Both the position numbers and the translations under genes were made by a program. Below the pieces are notes generated by a model. The model saw only the letters and a list, made by a program, of their open reading frames with translations. It did no database searches and was not told the origin of the DNA. From Thermoplasmata archaeon (GTDB lineage Archaea > Thermoplasmatota > Thermoplasmata > Lutacidiplasmatales > UBA184): DNA of 36,830 bases. The DNA lies in the NCBI GenBank assembly GCA_030037815.1, contig JASHPZ010000085.1, forward strand, positions 1 to 36,830. Reading direction: 5' to 3'. Positions within the stretch are counted from its first letter, which is position 1. Every line of letters begins with the position of its first letter. Shown here one piece after another: positions 13,502 to 36,830 of this stretch.

Positions 13502-14355
13502 CGCGCGGAGTCGGACCGGGGGTCGGCGGCCCGCAGCCGCTCGGGGTGGGCGTAGACGTTCAGCCGTCCGTCGCGCACGAAACCGGCGAGCGTGATCCCC
13601 CACCGGTCGGCGGCCGTCACCGCGAGGCTGGACGGCGCGGAGACCGCCGCGACGATCGGGATCCCCGCGCTCGCCGCCTTCTGCACGATCTCGAAACTCA
13701 CCCGTCCCGAGATCTGGAGCACCGAACGGCGGGCGGGAAGTGCTCCGTCCAGGAACCGGCGGCCGACCACCTTGTCGACCGCGTTGTGCCGCCCGACATC
13801 CTCGGCGACTTCGGTCACGCTCCCGTCGGGGTCGAACAGGCCGGCGGCGTGCACCCCGCCCGACCGGTCGAACAGCCGCTGTCGGGCTCGAAGCCGGGCC
13901 GGAAACTCGACGATCGTGGACGCGGGAAGGGTGAGGTCGCTCTGGACCGGGCCGCCCAGCTCGGCGAACAGTCCCTTGACGAGCGACCGGCCGCACACCC
14001 CGCAACTGGAGTTGACGAAGTACTGGCGTCGGCGCGCGGGGTCGAGCGCCACCGGACGTCGCGTCCACACCGTGACGACGTGGTCGCCCTCGGCTTCGGG
14101 CGGGTCGACCCGGTCGACCAGCGCGGAGTCCGTGAGGATGCCCTCCCCGAACAGGAAGCCCGCCGCGAGCGCGGCGTCGTCCCCCGGCGTCCGCATCGTG
14201 ACGCTGACGACCTCCCAGCGGTCGCCGTGGCCGAGTCGGATCTCGAGCGGCTCCTCGACCACGACCTCGTCGGTCGCCGGGACCTCGAACGGCGCAGCGC
14301 CTCCGCTCCAACGGGTCGCGTCGACCGTTTGGAGCGACGGGGGGTCGCTCGTCAC
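13498..14355 (-). CDS. fdhD: Formate dehydrogenase sulfurtransferase FdhD
   Basis: FdhD passes sulfur from a cysteine desulfurase to the molybdenum or tungsten cofactor of formate dehydrogenases. The 285 residues show MRTPGDDAALAAGFLFGEGI, the sulfur-carrying pair Cys118 and Cys121 in SSCGVCGRSL, FDRSGGVHAAGLF, and the signature EDVGRHNAVDKVVG. GTG 14355 overlaps the stop of the DUF1641 gene by 4 bases (GTGA). It is the third gene of the fdhA operon, so maturation factor and enzyme are co-expressed. The TAG stop overlaps the end of the M16 partner gene on the other strand. Confidence 0.96.
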   Translation of the reverse strand: MTSDPPSLQTVDATRWSGGAAPFEVPATDEVVVEEPLEIRLGHGDRWEVVSVTMRTPGDDAALAAGFLFGEGILTDSALVDRVDPPEAEGDHVVTVWTRRPVALDPARRRQYFVNSSCGVCGRSLVKGLFAELGGPVQSDLTLPASTIVEFPARLRARQRLFDRSGGVHAAGLFDPDGSVTEVAEDVGRHNAVDKVVGRRFLDGALPARRSVLQISGRVSFEIVQKAASAGIPIVAAVSAPSSLAVTAADRWGITLAGFVRDGRLNVYAHPERLRAADPRSDSAR

Positions 14356-14819
14356 GGGGCCCCGGAGGTCGACCGGCCCATTCCGCGCAGGAACCCGAGG
14401 ACCATCCGGAGCCCGCGGTTGACCTCGGGGTCCCGGAGCGCCGAGACGACGTCCAGCCAGCCGAGGGGTCGATCCTCTTGGGCGGCGCGGGCGGCGTCGA
14501 GCGCGCCCGGAACGGCACCGGCCAGCGGGGCGAGCGTCGTCGGGTCGAGGTCGCGGAACGCGCGGACGAGGAGCTCGAGATTCCGGACGGCCTTTCGGAC
14601 GTCGGCCGCCGGGAGGCGCTCCGTGAGCACTTCGACCACGCGGTCCTCCTCGCCGAGGAGCCCCGCGGAGAACCGGAGCACGCCCCGCTCGTCGAGTCGA
14701 CGGACGAGCTCGAGGAGCGCCCGGAGGGACTCGACCGACTCGACGAGGTCCGGTCGAAGTTCCTCGAGCGGCCCTTCGGGCGGCGCGGGCTCCGGCGGCG
14801 ATCGGATCGGTCGCGCCAT
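14352..14819 (-). CDS. DUF1641 protein
   Basis: This 155-residue, largely helical protein matches DUF1641, a family usually encoded beside formate-dehydrogenase-like genes in bacteria and archaea; its biochemical role is not known. The recognisable C-terminal motif is NRGLRMVLGFLRGMG, preceded by DVVSALRDPEV. There are no cysteines or membrane segments. ATG 14819 lies one base after the fdhA stop codon and is preferred; a GTG at 14837 inside fdhA would add six residues. It overlaps fdhD by 4 bases. Position between enzyme and maturation factor suggests an accessory or adaptor role for the oxidoreductase. Confidence 0.8.
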   Translation of the reverse strand: MARPIRSPPEPAPPEGPLEELRPDLVESVESLRALLELVRRLDERGVLRFSAGLLGEEDRVVEVLTERLPAADVRKAVRNLELLVRAFRDLDPTTLAPLAGAVPGALDAARAAQEDRPLGWLDVVSALRDPEVNRGLRMVLGFLRGMGRSTSGAP

Positions 14820-14820
14820 G

Positions 14821-17739: not shown

Positions 17740-17746
17740 GACCGAA

Positions 17747-17783
17747 CGGGTCGCGCCCCGCGCTCCGCCGCGGGAACGACCCG
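17747..17783. promoter_or_regulatory. Nested dyad at the fdhA promoter, candidate operator
   Basis: Two nested inverted repeats lie between the TATA-like element and the fdhA ATG. The outer arms are CGGGTCG (17747-17753) and CGACCCG (17777-17783); the inner arms are CCCGCG (17757-17762) and CGCGGG (17769-17774) around a 6-base centre. The dyad centre at about 17766 falls where transcription should start. It may be a repressor site or, if transcription starts earlier, an mRNA hairpin 7 bases before AUG. Confidence 0.5.
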
Positions 17784-17785
17784 GT

Positions 17786-17793
17786 CTATTTAT
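17786..17793 (-). promoter_or_regulatory. TATA-like element of fdhA
   Basis: Read on the minus strand this is ATAAATAG, the only AT-rich stretch in the gap. It overlaps the mobB-mobA stop codon and lies about 50 bases before the fdhA ATG, which predicts a 5' leader of about 25 bases. Confidence 0.6.
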
Positions 17794-18794
17794 CGGAGGT
17801 TCGCCCGCCGCCGACCGGCGAGCGCGCGCCGGAGTTGGCGGAGGTCGCGCGGGGTGTCCACGTCCGTGAACGACTCGGGGACGACCGCCCGCGCGGGCCA
17901 CCACCGTACTTCCCCCCGCGCGTCGAGCCGATCGACCAGCGCCTGAAGGCCCGCCCTCCGGCGGAGCAACGGCGTCACCGTCCCGCGGGAGGCACGGGCA
18001 TAGATCGCGTGGAGGACCTGCGGGACCCCGCGGGCGTCGATCGGGACGATCGAACGGCCGTCGAACGCCGCGCGCATTCGCCGCAGGCTCGCCGCGTCGA
18101 GGGACGGCATGTCGCCGCCGAACAGGAAGAATGGGCGGGGGGAACTCGCCGCGGCGGCCGCATATCCCGAGAGCGGCCCGCTTCCGCGCCGGTCGCGTAC
18201 CTGGGGGACGCGGAGGCCCGGGGCGGGGTCGACCGAGACCACTTCCGGACTCAAGCCCGCGCGGCGGGCCGCGGAGATCCCGCGCGCGAGGACGGTGCGC
18301 CCCGCCACCGTCCGGTAGAACTTCCTCGGCAACCGGGTCGAGCGACCTACGAGGAACACCGCGCGGGTGACCGGCGCGGGCCGGCTGGCGTGGGGGGAGG
18401 TGGTCGCCCGGTGCCACTCCACTTCGGCGACGACCGCCCGTGCCAGCGCGCGCACTTCGTCGGGCCGCCGCACCCGCACCCGCGCGCCGTGGAATCTCCG
18501 GCGGGAGTACCCTTCCACGAGGATCACGTCGACCGGGAGGGTGCGCGCCAGCGCCCACGCATCCCCCCGAAATCGTACGAAGGACTCGGTGCCGGAGAAG
18601 ACGACGAATCGAGCACCGGCCGAGTGCAGCCGGTCGGTGTCCTTGCCGCGCACATCGGGGGAGTGGTCGGAGTGCTTCACCACCGCGAGAGGAATCCGCT
18701 GCGCTGAGAGCCGTCGCGCGACGTCCTCGAGAAGAAGCGTTTTTCCCGAACCGCTCCTCCCGACGACCTGGATGACCAGCGGGGCGCGGGGCAC
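17790..18794 (-). CDS. MobB-MobA fusion, molybdenum cofactor guanylylation
   Basis: This 334-residue protein joins two molybdopterin-dinucleotide factors. The N-terminal MobB-like domain (about 1-150) has a P-loop GRSGSGKT at 12-19 and the family text KHSDHSPDVRGKDTDRLHSAGA split over two strands. The C-terminal MobA-like nucleotidyltransferase (about 155-334) has VGRSTRLPRK, LFGGDMPSLDAASL and the closing FTDVDTPRDL. The MobA nucleotide loop is shorter than the usual LAGGxSxRMG, so activity of this half should be treated with care. The order MobB then MobA is the reverse of common fused forms. GTG 18794 is chosen because it precedes the P-loop strand directly and a TATA-like site lies about 30 bases upstream. 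It sits upstream of fdhA on the same strand and divergent from moeA. Confidence 0.86.
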   Translation of the reverse strand: MPRAPLVIQVVGRSGSGKTLLLEDVARRLSAQRIPLAVVKHSDHSPDVRGKDTDRLHSAGARFVVFSGTESFVRFRGDAWALARTLPVDVILVEGYSRRRFHGARVRVRRPDEVRALARAVVAEVEWHRATTSPHASRPAPVTRAVFLVGRSTRLPRKFYRTVAGRTVLARGISAARRAGLSPEVVSVDPAPGLRVPQVRDRRGSGPLSGYAAAAASSPRPFFLFGGDMPSLDAASLRRMRAAFDGRSIVPIDARGVPQVLHAIYARASRGTVTPLLRRRAGLQALVDRLDARGEVRWWPARAVVPESFTDVDTPRDLRQLRRALAGRRRANLR

Positions 18795-21229: not shown

Positions 21230-24200
21230 CTAGGCCGGGACCGCGCGCTCCGTCCGCGCCGCCGCCGCGCCGGTCGCCATCGGGCCGCCGACGGTGAACC
21301 CGACCGAGACGCTCGCCGGACCGCCGTTCACCGTCACGCTCGCGTTGGTCGCCGAGTAGCCCGAGCCGGGCGCGAGCACGGTGTAGGCGTAGGTGCCGTT
21401 CGCCAACTGGAAGGTGATCGACGTGCCGGTCGTCGACTTCGTGGTCGACCCGACCGTCACCTGCCAGCTCGTGTGGTGCGGCAGCCCCGACTCCGTGAAC
21501 GTCACGACGTACTTCACGAGCGTGAAGTGCGTCACGACCGTCACCGGCGCGCCCGAGACCGCGAAAGACCCGGACTGGGTCGCCGAGTAGTTCGGCACGG
21601 TCGCGATCGCGTAGCTGTACGACCCGTTCGCGAGGTGGAACACGATCTTCGGCGTCGTCGCGGTCATCGTGGTTGCGCCGACCGTCACCGACCAGGACGT
21701 GTGCGCCGGCAGCCCGGTCTCCTGGAACGTCACGGCGTACTTCGCGACCGAGAACGCCTCGGTGATCGTCACCGTGGTGCCCGCGACCGTGAAGCTCCCG
21801 CCCGACGCGCTCGTGTAGCCCGGCACGCTTCCGACCGTGAACGCGTACGTCCCGTTCGGCAGCGTGAAGTGGATCTCGCTGACCGTCGCGCTCATCGAGG
21901 TCGCGCCGACCGTCACCGACCAGTTCGTGCCCGCGGGGAGTCCGGTCTCCTTGAAGGTGACCGTGTACTTCACCTGCGAGAACGTCCGCGTCAGGGAGAC
22001 GTCCGAGCCCGCGACGATGACCGACCCCGATTCGGAGGTGCGGTAGCCGGGGACGAGCCCGACCGTGAACCCGTAGGTGCCGTTCGGCTCCTCGAAGACG
22101 ATGGTCGCCCCCGTCGAGGAGAGCGTCTCGGAGTTCATCGTGATCGACCACGCGGTGCCGTTCGGCAGGTGGATCGCGGTGAAGGTGACGCTGTAGAGCA
22201 CCGGCGCGAACACGACCGACTCGGTGACGGCCGCGCCGTTCACCGTGACCGTGCCCGCGTAGGCGATCGTCGACTGGTGCCAGCCCGAGACGTCCTGGAT
22301 CGCGTAGGCGTACGTCCCGTTCGGGAGCCCCGAGAAGACGAGCGCGTCCGTCCCGCCGTCGGTGGTCGTGCTCATCGGGGTGCCGTTCACCGAGACCGCC
22401 CACGTCTGGCCGCCGGGCAGCCCCGACTCGTCGAACTCGACCGAGTACGTCACCTGGGTGAAGACGACCGCGACCGACGCCACGCCGCCCGCCACCGTGA
22501 CCGTTCCCGAGTAGGCGACCGAGTCCTGGTGCCATCCCGACACGTCCGCGATCGCGTAGCTGAAGGTCCCGTTCGCGACCGCGCCGAAGTCGAGCGCGTC
22601 GGTGCCGCCGTCCGTCAGCGTGCTCATCGGCCCGCCGTTGAACGTCACCATCCAGGTCTGGCCCGCAGGGAGCCCCGACTCGGAGAACGAGACGCCGTAC
22701 GTCACTTGGGCGAACACGACCGACACCGCGAGGGCGCCGCCCGAGACCGACTCCACGCCGGAGTAGGCGATCGTCGACTGGTGCCAGCCCGAAACGTCCT
22801 GGACCGAGTACGCGTACGTCCCGTTCGGTTCGGCCGCGAACGACAGGGTGTCGGTCGCGCCGTCCGTGATCGTCGACATCGGCACCGCGTTGAACGTCAC
22901 CGACCAGGTCTGACCGGCCGGCAGTCCCGACTCGGAGAAGCTGACCGCGTAGGTCACCTGGGTGAACACCGCGTTCTCCGTCACCGGCGCGCCGTTGACC
23001 GTCACCGTACCCGAGTACGGGAGGCTCGACTGGTGCCAGCCCGAGACGTCCTGGATCGAGTACGCCCAGGTGCCGTTCGCGACCGCGAACGTCACCGAGT
23101 CCGTGCCGCCGTCCGTCGTGGTGCTCATCGGCACGCCGTTGAGCGTGACCGCCCACGTCTCGGAGGCCGGGAGTCCGGACTCGTCGAACGCCACCGCATA
23201 CGTCGTGACGGTGAACGTCACGGGGATCCCGAGCGCCGCGCCGCTCACGGTGAACGACCCGGACTGGGTCGTCGTGAAGCCGGGCACGATCGCGATCTGG
23301 TAGGTGTAGCCGCCGTTCGGCAGGTTGAACGCGATCGTCGTGGTCGAGCTCGCGACCGTCAACTGACCGGGGATGGCGATCGACCAGTGCGTGCCCGACG
23401 TGAGACCCGACTCGGTGAACGTCACCGTGTGGCCCGCCGAGAACGCGAACGTCGTGACGGTCCCGATCGGCGCGCCCGAGATCGTGAACGACCCGGTCGC
23501 CGGGTTCGCGGCCGACTGGGACGCGCCCGTCAGCCCGCTGAACCCGGTGTAGGTGTACGTCCCGGAGGGCAGGTAGAACACCACGCACGGCGTGCCGCCG
23601 CAGACCGCGAGCAGCGTGGTCGTCTGCGTCTCGTTCAGCCAGCCGTAGCCGGTCGCGTTGACCACCCGCACCTCAAAGGAGGTCGTGCCGGTCGAGCTCG
23701 GCAACCCGGTCGCGTAGAACGTCGGGTCGTAGACCGAGTAGGCGATCAGCGGCGCGTAGTCGCCGCGGAACGGGTTCGCGGTCGCCGCGATGCCGGCGGA
23801 CGACGTGATGCTGGTCGAGCGCGCCGCGTACGGGATGTTCGCGTACGGGTTCGCGGCGTTGCCGTAGTTGAACCAGAAGTTGCCGCCCTGGTAGGTCGTG
23901 CCGAGGATGCTCCCGCTGAGCGAGAACCCGAGGTACGACGTGACGAACGACGCCGACTGGCAGGTGGTCGGTCCGGGGTAGGTCGGGGAGGAGAGCGGCG
24001 CATAGCCGGCCTGGCACGTCACGTTCCAGAAGTCCTGGTCCGACGCGGCAGCGCTGGCCGTCCCGTTGGTGTAGAACGCGTTGTTCCAGATCCGGTCGTA
24101 GCTCTCCGAGACCACGAGCCCCGTGGACGGCGCCGTGAGGCCGACGTACGAGGGCTGCGGCGCCGGGGTGAACGTGTTCCCCCAGACGACGTTCCGCGTG

Positions 24201-26548
24201 TTGGTCAGGGCGGCCCCGTTCACGACGGACGTTCCGCCGTTGATGAACTCGAGGCCCCGGTCCGAGACCGAGAACGTGTTCGCGGCGAACAGGTCGTTCT
24301 GGCAGGTGTTGCACACGACGGAGTAGAGCGTGGTCGCCTCCGAGTTCGCCCACGCGTAGATCCCGCTCGTGCCCGCGAGCGTGAAGTTCTGCACGTGGTA
24401 GAAGTACAGCTGGAACTGGTCGGAGTACGGCACGTCGAACAGGTTGAGGCTCGGGAGCTGCCAGGACGGGTAATCGATCAGGAACGACGGGGCCGGGTTC
24501 GACTGCGCGTAGACGGTGGTCGAGTTGATGTACTCCCCGATCCAGACCGTGAACAGGTAGTCGTTCAGGTCGCTGAACAGCCACGAGAGCGACCCCGACA
24601 CCCCGTACGGCGCGCCGACGGTCGGTGCCCCGCTCTCGATCCGGTACTGATTCCCGACGCTGCCGAGCCCGAAGCTCCCCGCGTTCGTGGAGATGTTCGC
24701 GAGGTCGCCCGCGCTGAACGCCCACAAGGGGGTGTAGACCCCCGTGGAGGCGTCGCGCGTGAGCGTGATGGTCGGCTCCTGGCTCGACGCGGTCAGGTTG
24801 ACCGTCTGGAGGATCGGGTCGTACCCGCCGAGCAGCACCTCGACCGTGTAGAGCCCGGGCGACAGCCAGAGGTTCCGTCCGAGCGTCGTCGGCGTGGGGG
24901 AACCCCCCGACCCGCTCCAGCCGGAGAACCAGCCGAACGTCGGGGCCACCTGGAACTGCGACTGGTTCGTGACGCCCGCGCCCCGCGCGACGCCCACCCA
25001 GGCGTTCGCCGGGCTGATGTGTCCGTAGTTGAGCGCGTACGCCCCGCCGCCCGCGGGGTAGGGGGCGCCGGTCGCGTTCCAGAGGCCGCCCAGGATCGAT
25101 GCGCCCGTCACCAAGTGGGCCACCGGCGTGCCGGCTCCCGTGAGAAGCGTCGGGCCCGGTCCGCTGACGCCCTGCGGCGCCCAGTAGCCGACCGACCCCG
25201 AGCTCGTCTCACCGGTCTCCCCGCCGAAGTCGTACGCCGCGGGGGTCGCCGCGTACGCCGTGCACTGGCCCGACGTCATCTCGTTGGCCGCGGGACAGTA
25301 GTTAATCCCGACCTCGGCGTTCGCGTACGCGGTGACCGTGGTCGCGCCGCTCGAGGTCCCGATCCCCCAGTCCATCTCGAAGTCGTTCGTCAGGCCGACC
25401 GGGTCGTAGACCGTCCCGTTCGCCTCGATCGCGGCCGAGCCGATGCGGCCGTTCGGGCCGTGGATCGGCACGCCACCGGGGTTGACGGACGGGCTGACGG
25501 AATTGAAGAACACGTCGTCGTACTCGCCGCAGACCTTCCCGGTGCCCGGGCTGGTCGGACAGACGCGCTGGCCGAGCGAGTTGAGCACCGTGTAGTTGAA
25601 GAACACCTCGTTCACCGGCGCGGTCTGGCTGATCGTGCCGCAGGACGGGACGCCGGTCCCCGGTGTCGTGTCGAGATGGCACGGGCCGGTCGTCGTGTTC
25701 AGGTAGAGGGCCAGGGTGAACGGGTAGGAGATCGTGATCGACGGCCCGTTGACGGCGTAGAAGCCGCCGCGCGGGGTCGAGAAGCCCTCGAGGGCGTTGG
25801 TGCCGGACGTCCACGCGGCCGTCGGGTTCGAGAAGTTCCAGATGTTGTTCTCGAACGAGAGCGAGTGGGTCGCCGGATTGTAGTTGATGACGTTCTGCAG
25901 CCAGAATTCGTTCGGGCAGTTCGGGGCGTTCGACGACCCGACCGTACAGCCGGTCGGCGCATTCGGGTTCGCCGGGAACGAGTTCTGTCCGAACAGCGTC
26001 ACGTTCGTCAGGACCGCGTTCAACTGGGCGCCGTACGCCGTCTGGGTCCCGAAGTCGAACTCCTCCGTCTGGACCCCGAGCGGGTCCTGGGTCGAGAACG
26101 TCGCCTGGAGACTGGTCGTGTCGACCGTGGTCGTGCCGATCGTGCCGTTCGTGTCGTTGAGGCCGTAGTAGGCGATGCCCATCGGGGCCGGGGCGCCCGA
26201 GTAGAGCGGCGTCACCGGTCCGGCGGCGGTCGGGTCGGCCGCCTGGTGCAGGTTCGGCGGGAGGAACAGGTTCGGGTTCCCTCCGCTGGCGAGATAGGAC
26301 GCCTCGTCGGCGGCCACGGTCGCGGCGCGGCCGGCGTCGATCCCGAACGTCTTCGTCGGCGCGGTGGACGCGGCCGACGAGACCGCGGGCGCCGAGACCG
26401 GCGCGGGAGTCGAGGTCGCGCCGGCGGTCGGGGCGGCCGAGGACCCTACGGCGGGCGCTCCGACCACCCCGGCGACCAACGCCGAGGAGACCACCATGAA
26501 TGCGGCGACGGCGAGCACGATCGTGGCGCGGCGATACCCGGTTCGCAT
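21230..26548 (-). CDS. Giant secreted thermopsin-like repeat protein
   Basis: This 1772-residue protein starts with a signal or anchor segment (TIVLAVAAFMVVSSALVAGVV, about 9-29) and an Ala/Ser/Thr/Pro-rich linker. Residues about 120-480 resemble thermopsin (peptidase family A5), an acid protease of acidophilic archaea: PAPMGIAYYGLND, NEFWLQNVINY and HSLSFENNIWNFS. A middle region (about 690-940) of short repeated turns with NDLFAANTF and NNAFYTNG looks like a right-handed beta helix. From about 945 to 1757 come one degenerate and nine clear beta-sandwich repeats with the ESGLPxGxxW signature. Many Asn-X-Ser/Thr sites suggest glycosylation. Unlike many relatives it has no C-terminal membrane segment, ending VGGPMATGAAAARTERAVPA. 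Whether it is an active protease, an adhesin or an envelope component is not decided. ATG 26548 is supported by a TATA element. Confidence 0.88.
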   Translation of the reverse strand: MRTGYRRATIVLAVAAFMVVSSALVAGVVGAPAVGSSAAPTAGATSTPAPVSAPAVSSAASTAPTKTFGIDAGRAATVAADEASYLASGGNPNLFLPPNLHQAADPTAAGPVTPLYSGAPAPMGIAYYGLNDTNGTIGTTTVDTTSLQATFSTQDPLGVQTEEFDFGTQTAYGAQLNAVLTNVTLFGQNSFPANPNAPTGCTVGSSNAPNCPNEFWLQNVINYNPATHSLSFENNIWNFSNPTAAWTSGTNALEGFSTPRGGFYAVNGPSITISYPFTLALYLNTTTGPCHLDTTPGTGVPSCGTISQTAPVNEVFFNYTVLNSLGQRVCPTSPGTGKVCGEYDDVFFNSVSPSVNPGGVPIHGPNGRIGSAAIEANGTVYDPVGLTNDFEMDWGIGTSSGATTVTAYANAEVGINYCPAANEMTSGQCTAYAATPAAYDFGGETGETSSGSVGYWAPQGVSGPGPTLLTGAGTPVAHLVTGASILGGLWNATGAPYPAGGGAYALNYGHISPANAWVGVARGAGVTNQSQFQVAPTFGWFSGWSGSGGSPTPTTLGRNLWLSPGLYTVEVLLGGYDPILQTVNLTASSQEPTITLTRDASTGVYTPLWAFSAGDLANISTNAGSFGLGSVGNQYRIESGAPTVGAPYGVSGSLSWLFSDLNDYLFTVWIGEYINSTTVYAQSNPAPSFLIDYPSWQLPSLNLFDVPYSDQFQLYFYHVQNFTLAGTSGIYAWANSEATTLYSVVCNTCQNDLFAANTFSVSDRGLEFINGGTSVVNGAALTNTRNVVWGNTFTPAPQPSYVGLTAPSTGLVVSESYDRIWNNAFYTNGTASAAASDQDFWNVTCQAGYAPLSSPTYPGPTTCQSASFVTSYLGFSLSGSILGTTYQGGNFWFNYGNAANPYANIPYAARSTSITSSAGIAATANPFRGDYAPLIAYSVYDPTFYATGLPSSTGTTSFEVRVVNATGYGWLNETQTTTLLAVCGGTPCVVFYLPSGTYTYTGFSGLTGASQSAANPATGSFTISGAPIGTVTTFAFSAGHTVTFTESGLTSGTHWSIAIPGQLTVASSTTTIAFNLPNGGYTYQIAIVPGFTTTQSGSFTVSGAALGIPVTFTVTTYAVAFDESGLPASETWAVTLNGVPMSTTTDGGTDSVTFAVANGTWAYSIQDVSGWHQSSLPYSGTVTVNGAPVTENAVFTQVTYAVSFSESGLPAGQTWSVTFNAVPMSTITDGATDTLSFAAEPNGTYAYSVQDVSGWHQSTIAYSGVESVSGGALAVSVVFAQVTYGVSFSESGLPAGQTWMVTFNGGPMSTLTDGGTDALDFGAVANGTFSYAIADVSGWHQDSVAYSGTVTVAGGVASVAVVFTQVTYSVEFDESGLPGGQTWAVSVNGTPMSTTTDGGTDALVFSGLPNGTYAYAIQDVSGWHQSTIAYAGTVTVNGAAVTESVVFAPVLYSVTFTAIHLPNGTAWSITMNSETLSSTGATIVFEEPNGTYGFTVGLVPGYRTSESGSVIVAGSDVSLTRTFSQVKYTVTFKETGLPAGTNWSVTVGATSMSATVSEIHFTLPNGTYAFTVGSVPGYTSASGGSFTVAGTTVTITEAFSVAKYAVTFQETGLPAHTSWSVTVGATTMTATTPKIVFHLANGSYSYAIATVPNYSATQSGSFAVSGAPVTVVTHFTLVKYVVTFTESGLPHHTSWQVTVGSTTKSTTGTSITFQLANGTYAYTVLAPGSGYSATNASVTVNGGPASVSVGFTVGGPMATGAAAARTERAVPA
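21287..23434 (-). repeat. Nine tandem repeats encoding ESGLP beta-sandwich units
   Basis: Units begin near 23434, 23203, 22954, 22702, 22450, 22198, 21970, 21742 and 21514. Two length classes alternate in blocks: four units of about 252 bases (84 residues, each with DVSGWHQ) are flanked by one unit of 231 and four of 228 bases (76 residues, with VPGY-type turns). The 252-base units are closer to each other than to the rest, suggesting recent internal duplication. Confidence 0.88.
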
Positions 26549-27315: not shown

Positions 27316-27771
27316 GTGACCCCGCCCGTGAAGGCCCGCAGCGGCCACATCCTCCTCGACACCAAGCGCTCGTACAAGGACCTCGTCCGCGTCTACCCCG
27401 AGATCCACAAGCGCGTCGTCGAGATGAATCGGCCGTTCGTCAAGGAGTCGGACCCGCTTCTCCCGGACGTGATGCTGGACGAGAACCTCCGCGACTTGAA
27501 GGGGGACCGCAAGCCGGTCGGCTACAACCGGCAGGACGTCTTCGGCCTCCGCCTGATCTTCCCGATCGTCGACGACGAACGGGCGGAGTTCTACTTCACC
27601 AAGCCCGCGCGCTGCCAGGAGGTCGTCCAGATCACGGAGCAGGTCTCCGCGCTCCTGCGCCGCCGCGGCATCAAGCACACGGTCGAGTACGACCGCCTCG
27701 CCCTCGGACCGCCGCGCGGCCTCCCGGGGATGCCTCCGCCCGGCTCGACGCCGGGGTTCCTCTCGGGCTGA
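27316..27771 (+). CDS. Hypothetical protein
   Basis: I do not recognise this 151-residue protein. It is soluble, charged and without cysteines in pairs or membrane segments. The main part (about 10-128) alternates strands and helices: GHILLDTKRSYKDLVRVYPE, VFGLRLIFPIVDDERAEFYF and a helix QVVQITEQVSALLRRRGIKH-like at about 103-120, followed by a Gly/Pro-rich tail from about 132. GTG 27316 is chosen by the TATA spacing. It is divergent from the YbjQ-family gene and convergent, with an 18-base gap, to the 1500-residue helical protein. Codon use is like its neighbours and base-3 GC bias supports real coding. Confidence 0.7.
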   Translation: MTPPVKARSGHILLDTKRSYKDLVRVYPEIHKRVVEMNRPFVKESDPLLPDVMLDENLRDLKGDRKPVGYNRQDVFGLRLIFPIVDDERAEFYFTKPARCQEVVQITEQVSALLRRRGIKHTVEYDRLALGPPRGLPGMPPPGSTPGFLSG

Positions 27772-27789: not shown

Positions 27790-30700
27790 CTACGGCTCGG
27801 ACGGGGGCCGGCGGAACGGCCAGAACGCGCTGGCCGCGGGCGCCGACGCCGGAGGCGGGGCGGGCTCGGTGGTCGCCGCGCCTTCCGCCTGGAGCCGCTT
27901 CAGCGACTCGCGGGCCTTCTCGAGCGCGGCGGCGTAGTCGGTGTCGCGCAGCCGCAGCGACTCCGCGAGCAGCTGCCGGGCCTCGGTCGTGTCGAGGTGG
28001 CGTTCGTGCGCGCGCGCGAGCGCGGCGTCGATCAGGAAGTGGAGGTTGAGGAGCTCGCGGTGGAGCGACTTGCGCAGATTCAGGTCCTCCTCGGCCTTCA
28101 GGAGCAGTCGGCCCGCATCCAGCGCGTGCCCCGCGCTCGCGAGCTCGACCACTTCCTTCACGCGCGCGCGGACCGGACCGACGCTGACGTGGAGACCTTC
28201 CTCGGCGAACGTCACCTCGGTCTGGAGGTCGCGCAGCCGGCGCTCGAACGGCTCGCGGACCGACGGTTCCAGCGTCCGGGTCGCCTGCCCGAGCAGGTTC
28301 TCGGCCTCGTCGAGGCGGCCCTGGTCGACCGCGATCCGCGCCTCGCTGAACACCTGCATCACCGGGGTCGTGTCGACGCCCAGCCGTTCGCCGACCCAGA
28401 GGCGGTCCTTGAACGCGCCCATCCGGCCGATGATCTCCTCTTGCCGACGTCGGCGGGCGAGCTCGGCCTCGGATCGGACGAGCTTCAGCGCCTGCCCGAA
28501 GTCGCGACGCTCGCGGAGCTGCGTCAGTTGCGTCCGCAGCTCCTCGCGGCGGGCCTGCTCCGCGGGGGACGCGTCGCCCGCCCGGGCGTACTCCGCCTCG
28601 ACCTCGCGCCACCGTCCGTCGACGACGGACTCGAACAGTCGCCGGCTCGCGGCCTCGCCGCGCGCGAGCGCCTGCTTCACGTGCGGCCACTCGCGCCCGC
28701 GCAGCGCGGCCTCGGCCTCCGCCACGACGCTCTCGAGCGGGTCGAGCTCCGTCGCGAGTCGCTCGCCGCGCGCGGCTTCGACCTGCCGACGGAGCTCGCC
28801 CATCGGGGCGGCGAACAGCCGCTCGATCGCCCAGCGACCCATCTCGGTCGCCTCGCGGGCGGCCCGGATCGCCTCCGCGTACTGGCCGAGGGCCCCGTGC
28901 CGCTGCGCCTCCGCGAGGCGACCGGCCCCGTCCGTGACGACCGCCCCCAGGTCCGCGGCCTCTGCGATCTGGCGCTCCGCCGACCGCATCGCGTCGCCGG
29001 CGCGGCGGTGTCCGTCCCGCGCGACGCCGAGGGCGTCGGAGGCGACCATCGACTGCTCGAGGACGTCGGGGTACGCGTGCTGCTGGAACGCGGCGCGGGC
29101 GAGGTCGAACTCCTCCTTCGCGCTCGGGGCGACCACGCCCTCCTCGACCGCGCGCGCGATCGCCCGCTCGGTCGCCTCGAGCGACCCTTCCGCCAACCGG
29201 CGCTGGAGGTCGACCCGCTCGAGCTCGTTCTCGCTCTTCGCGGCGAGCTGGAGCGCCTCCACCGCGCGGCCCTCGTCGAGCGCCATCCGCGCCTGGTGGA
29301 GGAGGTTCTCGGCGATCGACGTGTTCGACCCTTCGTGCCGCAGCCGCGTGACGGTCGCCTGGAATCCGGCGAGCGTCTTCGAAACGTGCTGGTAGGTGAC
29401 CTGGAGGATCTCGCGCTCGAGCGGGCCGCCGAGCTCGATGACGCGCGCGTACTGACGGTCGCGAAGCATCTGCTCGAGCCGCTCCATCTGGGCCCGGAGC
29501 GCGGCGACGTCGACGTGGAGGAGGTCCGCCTGGGCGAGCGACTCGCGCGCCCGCTTCGTCACGCGGTCGGCGTGCTCGACGAACCCGCGGGTCGAGATGA
29601 ACTCCGCGCGCGCCTGGTCGAGCAGCGCCGCCGCGCCGACCGGGAGCGGCAACGCCACGCGCCGGCGGGCCTCGCCCAGCGGCGTCAGGATCTTGTCGAC
29701 CTGGACCCCCGCGGCGCGCGCGATGTCGAGGTCCCGCTCGAGGCCGCGCAGGTTCTCTTCGAGGATCGGCCGCAGGAGCGCGACCAGCTCTTCATGGAGG
29801 AGGTGCGCGCCGGTCCGGGTCGCCTCGGGCGCGGCGGTCGCCCGCTCCGTGCGGAGCGTCTCCAGCCGGTGCTGGTACGGGTCCATCGCCGCGGAGAGCC
29901 GGCGGCCGTCCTCGATCAGGAGCTGGGTCTCGTTCAAGATCCGATCCCCGTCCAGGCGGGCCTCTTCGGCGCGGAGCGACTGCTCCACCCCGTCGAGCAG
30001 CGTGCGGGCCCCGTCGAAATCGAGCGCCTGGTACGCGAGTCGGGCGTTCCGGAGCGGTTCGTAGAACGGGGTCGGGTCGGCGCCCGCGCCCCGCAGCCGC
30101 CCGAGCAGGTCCTGGGCGCGGGAGATGCCCTCGAGCACCGCCTGCGCCCCGGCCCGCGCGCGGCCCGCCGACTCTTCGAGCCGGGTCGCGACCTGGTACG
30201 CCTCGGGATACCGTCCGCCTCGCGCCGCCGACTGCGCCTCCTCGAGCTGGGATCGGAACCGCCCGAGGTCGAGCCCCATCGTCTCGAGCTCGACCAACGA
30301 GAGCTTCGCATGAGAGACCGCTTCCTCGCTGCGGAGGAGCTGCTGCTGCTGCGCGCGGGTCCGGATCTCCTGGGAGGCGCGGGACGCCTTGACGAAGTCC
30401 CCCATGTTGAAAATCTGCTGGACCTCGTCGATCTGCCGCTGGACCTCGTCGCTCGCGCCGCCCATCGACTCGAGCACGCGCACCTCCGACTCGAGCAGCT
30501 CGACCAGCGCGGACGCGTGCGCGGCGAACACCGCGGCGAAGTCCCGCTCGGCCCGGCGCATGCTCTCGATCGACGCGGGCAGGTCCTCCTTGACGCGGAG
30601 GGAGACGTCGGCGTCCGCGAGGAGCCGCCGGACCGGAGACGTGAGCGCCTCGTCCGGAATGTCGGCGAACCCCTGTTCCATCTCTTCCACGCGCCGCGCG

Positions 30701-32292
30701 ACGAACGGCGCGGCCGCGGTCCGGAGGGCGACCTCCGCCTTGGCCACGGACTCCGCTGCCTCGACCAGCTTCCCGTCGTCCAGGAGCCCCCGCGCGGTCG
30801 AGATCTCCGCCTCCGCGTCCGGGTGGAGGAAGCCGCGTTCCCGGGCGTACTCCCGGATGCGGTCGAGGGTCGTCCACCGTTGGCGGAAGAACTGGAGCGC
30901 GTCCCGTCCGAAGGCGAGGACCGCTTCGCGGAGGATCTGGCGGGCGACGTCGACCTCGGCGCGGTCCAAGTGGCCGCGCGCCTTCACGAGCAGCGGGTCG
31001 AGCGCCTCGGTCGAGAAGCCGGAGGCGCGGAACCGTTGCGCCATCTCGTCCATCGCGCCGAGCTCGTCCCGCGCGCCGTCGAGGTCTTCGGTGAGCCGCC
31101 CGACGCGGTCGAGCGCCTCTTGGCTGGCGGCCAGGGCCTCCGAATAGATCTTGAGACGCAGCGCCTCGCGCGCGCGGTTCATCGCCGCGAAGACGTCGGT
31201 CGGGTCGCGACCGAGCCGGCGCGCCTCGACGATCCGGGGCCGGACCTCGTCGAGGAGTCCGGCGACCACGCTGACGATCGGCTCCTCCGCCGCCCGCCGG
31301 GCGTCGGTGAGCAGCGGCGCGATATCGAGCGGAGGGGCCTGGGGGAGCCGGGCGATCGCGGACTCGACGGCCGCGCGCGCGGCGGTCGGGTCGACCCCGA
31401 ACTCGGCGGTCGCGTCCAGGGAGGAGCGCAGGCTCTCGAGCGCCTGACCGCACCGATCGCGCAGCGCCTCCGCGAGCTCGGTCAGTCCGCGGTCGACCGC
31501 GTCCACCGTGGTCGGCCAGCGGTCGGCCGGGGCGTCCGCGTCGTCGCGCAGCGCGGCGTCGAGCGCACCAGTCGGCGCGCCGAACTCCTTCGCCGCCGCG
31601 ATCATCTCCGTCGCGGCGTCGCGCGACTGCGTGCGCCGGGCGACCGCCTCGGGGAGTCCGTCGGCGACGAACCGGTTCAACTGGTCCATCGCTTCGAGGA
31701 GCCCGCCCTCCTTTGCCGGCTCGACGGCGGTCGCGAGGCCCCGCTCAAACTCCGCGAACCGTTCGGACGAGAGGGTCGCCCAGCGGGCCACGGCGACCGC
31801 GCGTGCGCGGGCTTGTTCGATGAACTGGACCTCGGCGGCTTCGAGACTTCCCTCGATCCCGACCAGGGTCGCCGCGGTGTCCGCCCAGTCGCGGCCCGCC
31901 CCGGCGGCGGCCATCGCCTCGAGGCGGCCGCTCACCCCCTCCGGGAGCGGGACCCCCATGCCCGAGAGTCGGCCGACCGCCTCGGTCGTGCGACGTCGAC
32001 GGGCCTCGAGCGGCGACGGGACGACCTCTCCGAGATACGTGAGCAAGGACCGGGCCTCGGTCTCGACCGTGTCCCAGTCCGACCGACGCGCGGACTCCTT
32101 GATCTTGGCCGACCGTTCCGCGGCCTCGGGGGGCCGGATCGCGAGGCGCTCGAGGAGGAGGAGCTTCTCGTCGACCTCCTTCTGGAGCGCCTCGCCGCCC
32201 TGGCGCTTCTTCTTGAGCGCCTCGGCTTTTTCTTGCAGGATCCGCGTCAGCCGGGACGACGGGAGTGAACCCACCCCTCCCGGACCGGACAC
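27790..32292 (-). CDS. 1500-residue all-helical repeat protein, function unknown
   Basis: The protein is almost entirely helical, with a basic start (KAEALKKKRQGGEAL), then dozens of helical hairpins of roughly 35-45 residues with the loose pattern LxxARxxLDxGxxxEAxxL. Examples are RGLLDDGKLVEAAESVAKAE and RIAVDQGRLDEAENLLGQA. This resembles TPR- or spectrin-like bundles and coiled coils. There is no Walker motif, no membrane segment and no signal peptide, so it is neither an SMC protein nor obviously exported. It ends in a Pro/Ala tail with FWPFRRPPSEP. A scaffold or cytoskeleton-like role is possible but only inference. The start is GTG 32292 with AGGGAG a few bases upstream and a TATA element about 80 bases upstream. 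Confidence 0.85.
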   Translation of the reverse strand: MSGPGGVGSLPSSRLTRILQEKAEALKKKRQGGEALQKEVDEKLLLLERLAIRPPEAAERSAKIKESARRSDWDTVETEARSLLTYLGEVVPSPLEARRRRTTEAVGRLSGMGVPLPEGVSGRLEAMAAAGAGRDWADTAATLVGIEGSLEAAEVQFIEQARARAVAVARWATLSSERFAEFERGLATAVEPAKEGGLLEAMDQLNRFVADGLPEAVARRTQSRDAATEMIAAAKEFGAPTGALDAALRDDADAPADRWPTTVDAVDRGLTELAEALRDRCGQALESLRSSLDATAEFGVDPTAARAAVESAIARLPQAPPLDIAPLLTDARRAAEEPIVSVVAGLLDEVRPRIVEARRLGRDPTDVFAAMNRAREALRLKIYSEALAASQEALDRVGRLTEDLDGARDELGAMDEMAQRFRASGFSTEALDPLLVKARGHLDRAEVDVARQILREAVLAFGRDALQFFRQRWTTLDRIREYARERGFLHPDAEAEISTARGLLDDGKLVEAAESVAKAEVALRTAAAPFVARRVEEMEQGFADIPDEALTSPVRRLLADADVSLRVKEDLPASIESMRRAERDFAAVFAAHASALVELLESEVRVLESMGGASDEVQRQIDEVQQIFNMGDFVKASRASQEIRTRAQQQQLLRSEEAVSHAKLSLVELETMGLDLGRFRSQLEEAQSAARGGRYPEAYQVATRLEESAGRARAGAQAVLEGISRAQDLLGRLRGAGADPTPFYEPLRNARLAYQALDFDGARTLLDGVEQSLRAEEARLDGDRILNETQLLIEDGRRLSAAMDPYQHRLETLRTERATAAPEATRTGAHLLHEELVALLRPILEENLRGLERDLDIARAAGVQVDKILTPLGEARRRVALPLPVGAAALLDQARAEFISTRGFVEHADRVTKRARESLAQADLLHVDVAALRAQMERLEQMLRDRQYARVIELGGPLEREILQVTYQHVSKTLAGFQATVTRLRHEGSNTSIAENLLHQARMALDEGRAVEALQLAAKSENELERVDLQRRLAEGSLEATERAIARAVEEGVVAPSAKEEFDLARAAFQQHAYPDVLEQSMVASDALGVARDGHRRAGDAMRSAERQIAEAADLGAVVTDGAGRLAEAQRHGALGQYAEAIRAAREATEMGRWAIERLFAAPMGELRRQVEAARGERLATELDPLESVVAEAEAALRGREWPHVKQALARGEAASRRLFESVVDGRWREVEAEYARAGDASPAEQARREELRTQLTQLRERRDFGQALKLVRSEAELARRRRQEEIIGRMGAFKDRLWVGERLGVDTTPVMQVFSEARIAVDQGRLDEAENLLGQATRTLEPSVREPFERRLRDLQTEVTFAEEGLHVSVGPVRARVKEVVELASAGHALDAGRLLLKAEEDLNLRKSLHRELLNLHFLIDAALARAHERHLDTTEARQLLAESLRLRDTDYAAALEKARESLKRLQAEGAATTEPAPPPASAPAASAFWPFRRPPSEP

Positions 32293-32413: not shown

Positions 32414-32800
32414 CTAGGTCCGGCTGATCATCCGCCGGCCCATCGCGTCGATGTACTGGACCTCGGCGCCGGGGCTGAGCGACGGCTTCGTCTCCGCGTC
32501 GATCGCGAGGCTGAACGTCTCGTACGATTCGAGGTCCATCAACTGGACCTCGGTGTCGGTCAGCGACAGCACCTGCGCCTGGCGCTTGCCGATCATCGGG
32601 ACCTGGACCTTGTGCTTCACGGGGAATACGACGCTCCGCTTCGACCCGTCGAAGATGCCCACCGCGTCGATCCGGGCCTTCGCTTCCCCGTGCTTCCCCG
32701 GTTTGGACGTCTGGATCGAGAGGATCCGGCACGGCTCCTCGTCGATCAGCATGTACCGTCCTTCCTTGAGTTCGCGGACCTCCTGCTGCGTCCACGCCAT
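32414..32800 (-). CDS. Translation factor aIF5A
   Basis: This 128-residue factor helps the ribosome through stalling sequences such as polyproline and is modified by hypusine. The hypusination site is Lys36 in [12 protein letters not shown], and the N-terminus [20 protein letters not shown] is typical of archaeal aIF5A. The C-terminal OB domain includes [19 protein letters not shown]. The frame is open far upstream on this strand, but ATG 32800 gives the family start and has GAGG about 9 bases before it. It is divergent from the IleRS-like gene at 32948. The many Pro-rich stretches in proteins here would need this factor. Confidence 0.97.
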
Positions 32801-32837
32801 CGGGGTGTTCCTCGGGGGCGGGGGAAGTTCGGGGCGG

Positions 32838-32843
32838 CATAAG
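32838..32843 (-). promoter_or_regulatory. TATA-like element of aIF5A
   Basis: CTTATG on the minus strand, about 40 bases before ATG 32800, leaves a leader of about 15 bases that includes the GAGG ribosome-binding sequence. Confidence 0.5.
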
Positions 32844-32896
32844 AGTTGCCCTGATTTCGGGGCGCCGGCCCGGCGGCGCGCCGCGCGACGGCAGGG

Positions 32897-32902
32897 TTTA
32901 TT
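32897..32902 (+). promoter_or_regulatory. TATA-like element of the IleRS-like gene
   Basis: TTTATT lies 48 bases before ATG 32948 on the plus strand in an otherwise GC-rich gap, predicting a leader of about 20 bases. It shares the 147-base divergent region with aIF5A. Confidence 0.5.
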
Positions 32903-32947
32903 CCCGCCCGGCCCCCTCTCTGCGTACACCCGTTCCCGGGGCGCCCC

Positions 32948-35900
32948 ATGGCCGGCGACGTACCACGGTACACTCCGCACGTCCTCGAGGAGGCCGCGGC
33001 GGCGCTCTGGAAGAACCGACGGCTCCCCCCGGTCGGCGGGTGGGTGGGCCGCGGCGACGGCCCGGTGCTGCGCCAGTACGTCGGAGCGTTCGCGGACTCG
33101 GATACCCCGGTGCGGATCGCGCACCGGTCGGTCGCCGCGGACGTCGACGCCCGGTTCTACGCGCTCTCGGGCCGGAGGGCCGTCGGGACGCTGCGCCGCG
33201 TGACGCCGGGAGGCGACCCCGCCGCCGCGCCGATCGGGCCGCTCCTCGGACGGCTCGGGGTGTGGGTCGGCGGTGAAGGCGCGCGGGCGTGGGACGAGAC
33301 CGAACGGGCGGCCGGGCGCGCGGCGATCGTCGGGCGGCTCGCGCGGGCCGGCGCGCTCGTGTTGCGGGATGCGCCGTTCCGGGTCTGCCCGACCTGCTCG
33401 ACGCCGCGAAACCCGGAGCGGATCGTCTACCGGGAAGAGGAGGGCGACACCTACCTCGTCCGATTCCCGACGCGCCTCGGCGACCGGACCGTCGCGCTGG
33501 TCGTCTGGGTGGACGCCCCGTGGCGGCTCCTCGGAACGAGCGCGCTGCTCGTGAACCCCGAGTTCCCGTACGTGGTCGCCCGGTCGCGGCACCGCGACGC
33601 GGTGGAGCGGGTCGTCACGTCGCGCGCGTCCCTCGACCGGCTCCGCAGCTGGCTCCCGGGCGTGTTGCTCGAGGTGGAGGAGGAGGTCGTCGGCGCCCAG
33701 CTCCTCGACCTCGTCTACGAGTACCCGCTCCGCCACGAGTTCCCGATGGGCGGCAGCCTCGCCCCGCCCGCCGGCACGGTCCAGGGCGCCGCGGACGTCG
33801 GGGAGAGCGGCACGGGGATCGTACCGCTCGTGCCGGGGCACGGGGGCACGGACGCGCAGGTCGCCGAGCGGCTGAAGGTGCCCGGCTGGCCGCTCCTGAC
33901 GGCCCGCGGCCAGCTCGACCTCACGTTGATGCACAAGTACGCCGGGCTCGACCTCGCCACGGCGAACGACTTCGTCCTCCGGGACCTCGCGGAGGAGGGG
34001 GCGCTCTACGCCCGTCTCCGGGTGCGTCGCGGCGTCCCGCACTGCCAGGTGTGCGGCGGGGGGCTGATCTGGGCGCCCGGCCGCGCCTGGTGCCTCGAGC
34101 CGGCGCGGTTGCCGCGCGAGGTCGCGGAGACGTACCGGCGGCTGCTGCCCCGCGACCCGATCGTCGGGCAGATCGAGTTCGCCGCGTGGCCGGTGAGCGA
34201 GTCGTCCACGACGGACGGCGAGCGGGCGGTCGGACTGCTCGAGTGCAGCCGTTGCGAGCGGCTGGAGATGCCCCCCGCCGACCTGCGGTGCGCCTGTGGG
34301 GGCCGCCGGACGCTCGTGAACCGCCGGCTGCTCAGCTCGTTCGAAGGCGCCGTCTCCGCGTGGGCGCGGACGGACCCCGTGCCGTTCGGGGACGCGGTCC
34401 GCGTCTACGTCAACGACCGGCGACGCGCCCCGACGCTCGTCCACCACCTCGCCTGCGCGTCGGTCGTCGACGGGCTCACGGGCGAGTTCACCCTCGACGT
34501 CCTCGCGTCGATCGCCGACCTCGACCTCGACGCGCTCGTGACCGCGCACGGTACGGACGCCGTCCGGTCGGCGCTCGTCCGCGCCCCGGCGACCGGTCTG
34601 ACGGCCGCGACGTTCACCGCGTTGTGCGTCCAGGAGCGGGCGCGGCTCTCGCGGTGGTGGTCGGCGGCGCGCGCGCTCGCCGACGCGGCCGAACGCTCGC
34701 TCCTCGCCAGCGCGAACCGACCGATCCACGAGGCGCTCGGAGAGCTCGAGCCGGAGGACCGCGCGGTCCTCGCGCTCTGGGAGCGGGTCCGCGCGCAGGC
34801 GGTCGCCGACTTCGAGCGCCACCAGCCCGGTGCGGCGCTCCAACGCTTCCACCGGTTTCTCGAGAGCGACTTCGGGGACTACCGCGATTGGGCCGCGGCG
34901 CGCCTCGGGGCCAACGCGCTCGCGCCGTCCCGCCGGGCGGCCCAGCGGACGCTCGTCCACCTCCTCCGATCCGGTGCGGTCCTCGTCGCACCGGTCGCGC
35001 CGTTCACCGCGGAGGCGGTCTACCGCCTGCTCCGACCCGAGGCGACGAGCGTCTTCGAAGCGACCTCGGAACCGGTCGACCGGGCGCTGGTCGACGACGC
35101 CGCCACCGCCCGCTGGGATCGGTGGCGCACGGTCCTCTCCACGCTCGACCGGTTCCGCCGGCGGCAACGGATCGGGCGGACGACCCTCCTCCCGATGGTC
35201 GTCCTGGCCGCCGCGACCGACGAGCTCGGCGACCGGCTCCGTGAGGACGCGGCGACCTTGGCACGCCTGGCCCGCGCCGCCCACCTCGAGGTCGCTTCGC
35301 CGAAATCTCCGTGGACCGGACGCCGACGCACGCTCCGACCGATCGAGAGCGAGATCCAGCGGGCGTACCCGACCCAGGCCTCCCAGATCATGCACCTGCT
35401 CCAGCGGGGCCTTCCGCGGGCGAGCGGCGAGTCGGGGGAGCTGAGCGTCGTCATCCACGGGCTCCCCCGCACGATCACGCCCGCGATGTACGAGTACGTG
35501 GAGTCGCTCCCCGCCGGCGTCGTGGAGACGCCGTGGACCGGCGGTTCGCTCTACGTCGAGCTGCCCGGCAGCGCCGACGGCGCGACCGCCGGCCCGCCGC
35601 TCTCCGCGGACGCCTTCTGGTTGACCCGGCGCATCGCGAAGCGACTGCGCGCCGCGCGCCGCGACGGGATTCCCGCCGCCGTGACGGTCGCCGTCGTGGC
35701 GACGTCGCCGCCCCTCGCGGAGGAACTTGCGCGGCACGCGGCCCCGATCGCCCAATCCCTCGGCCTCGCCGAACTGCGGGTCGTTGAGCACGGCGAGAGC
35801 GCCCCGCCCCCGGGGCGCATCGTGGGCCGGACCCGCACGGGCGCGCGGTGGTGGGTCGACCTGCCGGGGCTCCCGCCGGCGCCGCGCACGCCCCGTCGGC

Positions 35901-36830
35901 TGACGAGCCCCCGCCGTCGCATGCGGATCGCCGTCCCGTCCGCGCACCGCGGGTTGGCGCCGGGCGACCGCGATTTCGCCGACCTGGCGCAGATCGCGCG
36001 CGAGGAGGCGGTCCGCGCGCTGGGCCAGGAACTGGATGCGTTGCTCGGGGCGCCCCTGATCGGGCCGGCAAAGGTCGCGGGCGCGTGGGAGGGCGGGGTG
36101 ACCTCGTTGGAGGGGTATCGCAGCGCTCCGTTCGACACCCTCGTCGCGATGCCGGGATTCGGCCGGGCCCTCACGATCGAACTGTTCGACAAGCTGGGGC
36201 GCACGGTCCCGCCGGAGGCGAGGGCTCCTCCCCCCCGGCGGACGGCTCGGAGCGCACCGCCCGTCGCTCCCGCCGCCCCAGGAACTCTCGTCGCCCCCGA
36301 CCTCACGGCGCCCGTTTCGAAGGCGGAGACCCTTCGGCCACCCACCCTTCCGCCGGCTCCGGAGCCTGTCGAAACGGACTCCGGGGGGGACGGGGTGGCC
36401 GAACTGCCCACGCCCGAGGACTCGGTCGTCTCCGAGCCGGAAGTCATGCCGCCAACGACCTCTGAGTCGGTTGCCGCATCGCTCCCGCCGCCCGAGCCGT
36501 TAGCCACACCGCTCCCGCCGCCCGAGTCGCCCACGGCCCCGAACACCGAAGTCGAAGTCGTTACGGAAACGGATTCGAGCCTGCCGTCCGTACCGGTCGA
36601 AGGCCCGGTCGGAGGGCCCGGCGCGGCGCCCGCCGACGCCGGTTCCGAGGCGGAACGGCCGGCGGAGAGCGCCGTGGCTCGGGAGGTCCTCCCGCCGGAG
36701 GACCCCGTTCCCGAGGCCGGGGCCGCCGCCGCAGCCGAACCGCCGCTCGAGTCGGGGGTCGCGAGCGCTCCGGCCGCGGACGTTTCGTCCGTCCCCGAGC
36801 CCGCTCCGCTCGAAGCGGCTCCGTCCGGGG
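32948..36830 (+). CDS. Catalytically dead isoleucyl-tRNA synthetase paralogue with HhH and disordered tail (3' truncated)
   Basis: The frame is open from ATG 32948 to the window end (1294 codons). It follows archaeal IleRS along its length: [16 protein letters not shown] at the start, a first zinc pair Cys147/Cys150, the editing domain with [12 protein letters not shown] (about 185-196) and [15 protein letters not shown] (288-302), [12 protein letters not shown] (364-375), [11 protein letters not shown] near 534, the anticodon domain with [16 protein letters not shown], and the C-terminal domain with [14 protein letters not shown]. Yet no HxGH is present (the GDGP at 36-39 is kept, then AFAD), the KMSKS position reads TLDVL, the editing threonines are VDA and the editing His is Pro293; only Asp302 remains. 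A helix-hairpin-helix ([20 protein letters not shown], about 1064-1083) and a 200-residue Pro/Ala/Glu tail follow. It cannot charge tRNA as written; tRNA or DNA binding is inference. Confidence 0.85.

Follow-up and report, generated by a model that had tools for sequence, protein, structure and literature searches.

The last gene of a contig from a Thermoplasmata archaeon encodes a dead isoleucyl-tRNA synthetase (IleRS), a protein of synthetase descent that has lost its catalytic and editing motifs and is still retained. The window, meaning the whole stretch of DNA analysed here, is the complete contig JASHPZ010000085.1 (C91, 36,830 bases) of a draft genome of 1.57 Mb in 94 contigs, 89% complete. 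The reading frame of the dead IleRS stands at 32948-36829 on the forward strand; it has 1294 codons without a stop and is cut off by the 3' contig end, and its remainder is found on contig C7 of the same genome. The protein is a descendant of an archaeal-like IleRS type, type B, and belongs to the 'PS' family. Its descent, its loss of motifs and its retention are well supported. The dead IleRS probably has a second, non-enzymatic job, and we give about even odds (roughly 0.5) to the reading that it stems from a bifunctional synthetase: charging passed to another IleRS, catalysis was lost, and the non-catalytic role remained.

Structurally, the dead IleRS is an IleRS by descent and by predicted fold, judging from its weak ileS match, its anticodon-domain match and a structural model. 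The NCBIfam ileS profile (TIGR00392) matches at 6.9e-33 with 113.8 bits, against a cut-off of 621.4. The Pfam scan placed Anticodon_1 at 34757-35185 (residues 604-746; 2.8e-11, over cut-off) and gave no match to tRNA-synt_1. The model of the core has a mean predicted local distance difference test score (pLDDT) of 86, and its first 15 matches among solved structures are all IleRS, with 8c8v at E 1.5e-48 and a template modelling score (TM) of about 0.56; its input alignment comprised 16 family members plus 18 further type B sequences, on which the model leans. Like archaeal IleRS (TIGR00392; PDB 8c8v, 1ile), the protein has the same domain order, the CP1 domain, the zinc cysteines, and the anticodon and C-terminal domains. 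Unlike them, it is devoid of HIGH, KMSKS, GxDxHG, the DQ motif and the editing Thr and His, and it carries a helix-hairpin-helix (HHH) and a DUF835 domain at its C-terminal end. The earlier note on this DNA had described a full-length IleRS paralogue without HIGH, KMSKS, the threonine-rich editing strand and the editing histidine, and the alignment against motif-complete IleRS bears this out.

The catalytic Rossmann domain is left as two remnants. In the N-terminal half (32948-33367, residues 1-140) HIGH is replaced by PVRI and GxDxHG falls in a gap; in the C-terminal half (34148-34627, residues 401-560) the DQ motif reads NDRRRAPTL and the KMSKS region falls in a gap. The five-motif test found 0/5 active-site motifs. 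The CP1 'editing' domain between them (33368-34147, residues 141-400) has lost its chemistry as well: the strand WTTTPWT has become WVDAPWR, and the editing His is replaced by Pro293, with Asp302 retained (33824-33853). The nine-residue spacing of Pro293 and Asp302 noticed earlier was right. Position 293 holds Pro in 14 of the 16 family members compared, with one Gly and one Ala, and Asp302 is invariant. Zinc-type cysteines lie at Cys147/Cys150 (33386-33397), Cys366/Cys369 (34043-34054) and 433/436/448/450 (34244-34297); across 34 sequences, motif-complete IleRS included, all are invariant apart from C436, which is conserved in at least 90%. These cysteines had been called kept or added; they are kept, and none is an addition, being ancestral and shared with motif-complete IleRS. 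The IleRS C-terminal region (35285-35902, residues 780-985) is DUF5915-like by alignment to the type B DUF5915 region, and has no Pfam match of its own. Fold, CP1, zinc cysteines and anticodon domain speak for IleRS descent, whereas the marks of a functional IleRS, namely the HIGH/KMSKS signatures, a score over the TIGR00392 cut-off, and the editing Thr strand with its His/Asp pair, are lacking.

The same genome holds a second IleRS, as the earlier note had proposed to look for. Contig C56 carries a 1000-codon IleRS frame which matches ileS with 756 bits, above cut-off, and has GPP, HIGH, GWDCHG, EGIDQTRGW and KMSKS. A long frame on contig C27 was tried as an IleRS and rejected, as it is a valyl-tRNA synthetase (ValRS; 942 bits over a cut-off of 704). 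One could argue from the predicted overall IleRS fold that the window protein is a still-working IleRS with unrecognised motifs. With 0/5 motifs, motif regions that are partly missing, and a motif-complete IleRS in the same genome, this is very improbable.

The substituted active-site positions are themselves conserved. R60, R491 and R492 are found in 16/16 family members, and A64 and R493 in 15/16; at the positions of R60 and R491-R493, motif-complete type B carries N, H/D and Q. These basic residues, at positions where the active type differs, would suit an old active site turned into a new ligand pocket or a new enzyme. Parts of the catalytic domain are missing, however, and the alignment did not show the RRR motif in the other degenerate lineages, so we regard a new pocket as unlikely.

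Beyond the synthetase core, the protein continues into an HHH at 36038-36169 (residues 1031-1074), which is weak by Pfam (HHH_5, E 0.0033, 18.3 bits against a cut-off of 27) and has conserved GPxKxxxxW and PGFG; the same element is strong in some motif-complete relatives (1.5e-14 in L093). A Pro/Ala/Glu-rich stretch follows at 36170-36829. It had been taken for the end of the protein, which was mistaken: it is a linker, and contig C7 carries the reading frame on into DUF835 (PF05763; 4.3e-10, 39.9 bits against a cut-off of 33.1), outside the window. C7 (L052) overlaps the last 869 bases of the window (35962-36830) with 95.5% identity, which makes it look like a variant contig of this locus. 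Such a pair of variant locus ends in one draft genome suggests a strain mixture. Full-length relatives also finish in DUF835, over cut-off in 4/4 scanned. The architecture is thus that of the type B IleRS-DUF835 fusion, with DUF835 on C7, a weak HHH, and DUF5915 by alignment alone.

The DUF835 domain here is, on its predicted structure and its sequence, an inactivated KaiC-like domain without a P-loop. Its model (pLDDT 93) matches the clock protein KaiC at E 3.4e-5 and FlaH at E 1.0e-4, with a TM of about 0.6. The G-x4-GK[ST] P-loop occurs in 0/38 DUF835 sequences; L043 alone has GK[ST], and outside such a context. Its score above the Pfam cut-off, KaiC-like fold and missing P-loop place the domain in DUF835, which a published survey lists as an inactivated KaiC-like domain of Methanomicrobia and Thermoplasmata (PMC5847659). 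This DUF835 is the only one over cut-off in the window genome, and two other Thermoplasmata genomes searched gave 12 and 13 matches. The C-terminal modules had been considered new. They are not new to the lineage, because DUF835, often with HHH, already stands on the motif-complete IleRS of other families. In the literature searched, neither an IleRS-DUF835 fusion nor an inactive archaeal IleRS is described, though Makarova et al. 2017 (mBio, on KaiC-like ATPases) may mention such fusions.

The dead IleRS is widespread in its family. A profile of 16 sequences, run against 103 family genomes at a threshold of 1e-60, found it in 71, and in 23 of the 36 genomes with completeness of 90% or more and contamination of 5% or less; three of seven genera carry it. 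No internal stop codons were seen among the matches listed. The ratio of nonsynonymous to synonymous substitutions (dN/dS, by NG86) is 0.18, 0.15 and 0.20 in the three closest family pairs (981-985 codons), with 0.15-0.24 in their dead catalytic parts, and 0.28-0.47 in five more distant pairs; these ratios are rough, because dS (about 0.7-1.2) does not grow with protein distance. Close relatives of the window protein are, on this sequence comparison, under purifying selection. CP1 is the best conserved domain in the window's family (median identity 0.48, DUF835 0.36), though its editing residues are lost. One genome (G217) has two nearly full-length matches to the family, on contigs C58 and C20.

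The gene order around the dead IleRS is conserved too. The aIF5A gene (32414-32800, reverse strand) is its divergent neighbour, across an intergenic region at 32801-32947 common to both, and this arrangement was found in 15/15 loci with upstream sequence. The start-to-start distance is 134-378 bases in 13 of the 15; two loci have longer distances of about 1.9 and 2.5 kb. A pseudogene in decay or an assembly artefact could account for the motif loss, the fast divergence, the window copy being cut by the contig end, and the higher dN/dS of the window's own pairs. It is hardly credible next to the absence of stops among the matches listed, the dN/dS of 0.15-0.20 in close pairs, the constant aIF5A neighbour, and the long contigs of independent assemblies that hold the gene. 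The claim that the frame is intact and not decaying therefore stands. Neither of the two outcomes named beforehand as fatal to the idea was seen: a second IleRS is present, and copies with open frames occur in many assemblies.

Across the class Thermoplasmata there are two main IleRS types: type B, archaeal-like with HxGT and MSKS, and type A, which is short and mostly has HIGH and KMSKS. Ten motif-complete type B proteins from ten families (f5, f14, f16, f4, f11, f17, f21, f22, f25 and f28) carry DUF5915 and then DUF835 over the Pfam cut-off. HHH is present in many motif-complete fusions, not all, and zinc ribbons often stand alongside. Some type B proteins, three of f8 and one of f23, are without DUF835, while f8 also includes a genome that has the fusion (L188, by sequence). 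A range search of 194 phylum genomes with a model of the C-terminal half gave an indication of how far the fusion extends: among the matches listed, IleRS-length frames reaching DUF835 fall in Thermoplasmata. Most of the matches listed from other classes stop at about position 386 of 751, and several longer ones read through a stop codon.

The genomes with two copies follow an unusual pattern. Twenty of the 22 read from DNA have exactly one copy with 5/5 motifs and none has two, where '5/5' is a post-hoc definition, as the five patterns were loosened (e.g. MHKS, PLSKS) after viewing the alignment table, and the genomes were chosen for their matches and not randomly. In G063 and G066, the remaining two, the copy likely to be active is truncated at a contig end. 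With G013 and G096 added, exactly one complete copy is found in 22/24 two-copy genomes, and two in 0/24. G068 was left out of this count as a single fragment; its type B match (L157) is split over two frames, perhaps by a frameshift or an assembly fault. The usual state is a complete type A beside a fusion with 0/5 (f1, f3, f6, f9, f15, f27) or 3/5 motifs (f2, f13, f18). In f24 the better of the two copies is a short HxGT form, next to a fusion with 2/5. Ten families retain a dead or partly eroded fusion, and in eight of these it carries DUF835. A further case is G013, a single-contig genome of 1,486,778 bases, where a motif-complete type A IleRS accompanies a 1017-codon dead copy at C1:809386-812436 with an anticodon domain, DUF5915, a weak HHH, a zinc ribbon and DUF835; NCBIfam names this copy weakly, as ValRS-like.

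Other arrangements are found as well. An eroded short type A copy beside a motif-complete fusion is seen at L101, L136 and L164 (G002, G061 and G130). The short copies of f5 read KISRA, KIEAE or RMRGG at KMSKS, and their editing residues are altered. G025 (f20) pairs a complete fusion with an odd second copy of 2/5 motifs; this copy (L153) is a 982-residue IleRS-like protein with GVHH, AMHRS and EMREQVRLW, and matches neither type. Among 39 one-copy genomes read, 32 are 5/5. The seven exceptions comprise five that show a degenerate copy whose partner was not read (G065, G033, G074, G079, G048), one that is a single letter off (AFSKS, G044), and one that contains Ns (G015). G065 had no IleRS match at 1e-70 and is taken for an incomplete draft.

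What the degenerate copies keep differs between lineages. Domain identities were compared with 15 active sequences, using four degenerate copies from f9 and one from each other family. In f2, f3, f9, f13, f18 and f24 the catalytic part has a median identity of 0.19-0.47 to active fusions, against 0.59 between active ones, while DUF835 remains at 0.47-0.61, against 0.53 between active ones. In the window's family all domains have diverged from active forms (0.15-0.23). A charge comparison by domain gave no clear signal. The idea that DUF835 is the part always retained was weakened by f27 and f6 (L114). A related explanation holds that the C-terminal HHH/DUF835 signalling module alone matters, with the synthetase part as a passive leftover spacer. 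In f3 and f9 DUF835 stays conserved next to a collapsed catalytic part, and in f15 it sits on a strongly reduced scaffold, both in agreement with this. Yet CP1 exceeds DUF835 in conservation in the window's family, close pairs show purifying selection on the dead catalytic part, and the f27 copy keeps the scaffold without DUF835. A spacer with a working tail is therefore doubtful.

The descent of the dead copies was followed in trees made by FastTree. In the tree of the anticodon and C-terminal regions, type A separates cleanly (0.968), and the window's family falls in type B with f2, f3, f6, f9, f15 and f27 (0.962). In the same tree f13, f18 and f24 form a separate group (0.956) beside the motif-complete f7 and f12 (0.857), by which catalysis would have decayed more than once. 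The whole-core tree without an outgroup is at odds with this, as it joins all degenerate copies in one clade (0.986). Both outgroup-free trees group the window's family with type B; the ValRS-outgroup tree disagrees. In NCBIfam, valS models fit the f15 and f27 copies better than ileS does; these copies were assigned to type B because of BLAST, DUF5915 and the tree.

The preferred reading, an inherited second job that outlived charging, would run as follows. The ancestor would be an archaeal-type Thermoplasmata IleRS, commonly with a C-terminal extension ending in the inactivated KaiC-like DUF835 and often containing HHH. It would have had two jobs, the charging of tRNA-Ile and a non-catalytic job depending on the scaffold and the extension. 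Another IleRS, usually of the short HIGH/KMSKS type, would take over charging in lineages holding both, and the fusion could then lose its active and editing sites and be retained for the second job. The remaining scaffold (CP1 with its zinc sites, the anticodon-binding domain, the C-terminal domain and HHH) would bind tRNA-Ile or another structured RNA unreacted, and the P-loop-less KaiC-like domain would relay or assemble the bound state as a protein-interaction module. That the scaffold binds RNA and DUF835 signals is perhaps so; the suggestion comes from which domains are present and from the use of inactivated KaiC domains in signalling. The roles put forward in the earlier note, tRNA-Ile binding, a translation regulator or a nucleic-acid binding hub, are likewise conjectural. 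Given the divergent gene order, the dead IleRS may also be co-regulated with aIF5A and so with translation.

Several observations weigh against this reading. In 32/103 family genomes, 13 of the 36 high-quality ones among them, the family survey gave no match at 1e-60, so the protein is dispensable in some lineages. For the two pairs of the window protein with its nearest relatives, dN/dS is 0.44-0.47 and reaches 0.76 in the anticodon part. HHH was not found at 1e-5 in 4/7 motif-complete fusions and is therefore not a fixed part. DUF835 has itself diverged in the window's family (0.21 to active forms), and it was not found in the f27 copy or in the complete f6 copy read (L114); in some lineages, therefore, it must be the scaffold that matters. 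The tree with ValRS as outgroup places the window's family next to the outgroup, probably through long-branch attraction. Three f5 genomes are reversed, with a complete fusion and a short copy of 3 or 4/5 motifs.

The f5 genomes also bear on another explanation, in which the dead copy is an accessory subunit that forms a heteromer with the active IleRS, or joins a multi-synthetase complex, and aids tRNA delivery, stability or localisation. Swapped roles suit a pair where either partner may be dead, and two copies are kept side by side in the 24 genomes read. Other lineages, however, hold the active short copy alone, which leaves the accessory subunit a minor contender.

A wider version of the inherited-job reading would make the Thermoplasmata IleRS ancestrally bifunctional, with the KaiC-derived tail as a translation-status signalling hub. 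A second IleRS, gained by duplication or acquisition, would then have split the functions, leaving the dead copy as a dedicated sensor of tRNA or other RNA whose output is the inactivated KaiC, a counterpart of GCN2 in logic, not descent. GCN2 is a pseudo-HisRS fused to a kinase. It would share with the dead IleRS the logic of a synthetase-like sensor joined to a signalling domain, and differs in synthetase class and output domain, RNA sensing being conjectural here. We hold this version as tentative.

Among characterised proteins, LeuRS-I of Sulfolobaceae is the nearest non-aminoacylating archaeal precedent in the portion of the review seen. It is reported to bind tRNA-Leu and make leucyl-adenylate without aminoacylation, and to be needed for optimal growth (Weitzel et al. 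2020, in review PMC9437257). Like the dead IleRS, it is an archaeal duplicate of a class-I synthetase with a disrupted editing domain; unlike it, LeuRS-I still forms the adenylate, whereas the dead IleRS lacks the adenylate-forming motifs and has a KaiC-like domain. HisZ, PoxA, SbzA and IleRS2 are further cases of a synthetase scaffold duplicated or reused, but IleRS2 and SbzA are catalytic, and no inactive IleRS stands among the review's entries seen (PMC9437257). DUF835 response-regulator outputs share the Pfam domain, though there it is joined to REC/PAS and here to a synthetase (PMC5847659). Inactive synthetase paralogues themselves are known; the dead IleRS brings to them a new architecture and an unusual pattern of one active copy.

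The rest of the window places the gene in its genomic setting. The named relatives of the protein are Thermoplasmata metagenome-assembled genomes, including UBA184 and UBA61. The order Lutacidiplasmatales, including UBA184, is described as a high-GC soil order (PMC9287336). On the far side of aIF5A, a 1500-residue protein at 27790-32292 (reverse strand) has no Pfam match at 0.001 and is matched in 12/13 other loci compared. Stretches read around aIF5A in four same-genus genomes (G080, G050, G132, G160) hold neither the dead IleRS nor this giant gene; in four genomes of other genera (G057, G101, G041, G021) they hold the giant gene or part of it, without the dead IleRS. A conserved 151-residue protein at 27316-27771 (forward), with no Pfam match, occurs in 10/13 other loci compared. 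A 1772-residue frame at 21230-26548 (reverse) contains three thermopsin stretches (Pfam 6.9e-23; the model covers only 256 positions). The 1519-residue open frame at 13387-17946 (forward) has no Pfam match, and may or may not be genuine in this GC-rich DNA. An M16 peptidase with both domains stands at 10015-12237 (forward), and a DUF2070 membrane protein at 7381-9462 (reverse).

The dead IleRS represents one outcome of the same evolutionary experiment carried out across a class, in which only one of two IleRS-like copies keeps a full active site and the other is still retained. This pattern offers a way to tell apart what a synthetase does as an enzyme and what it does beyond aminoacylation. 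Additionally, it connects a domain of unknown function, DUF835, with the machinery of translation.

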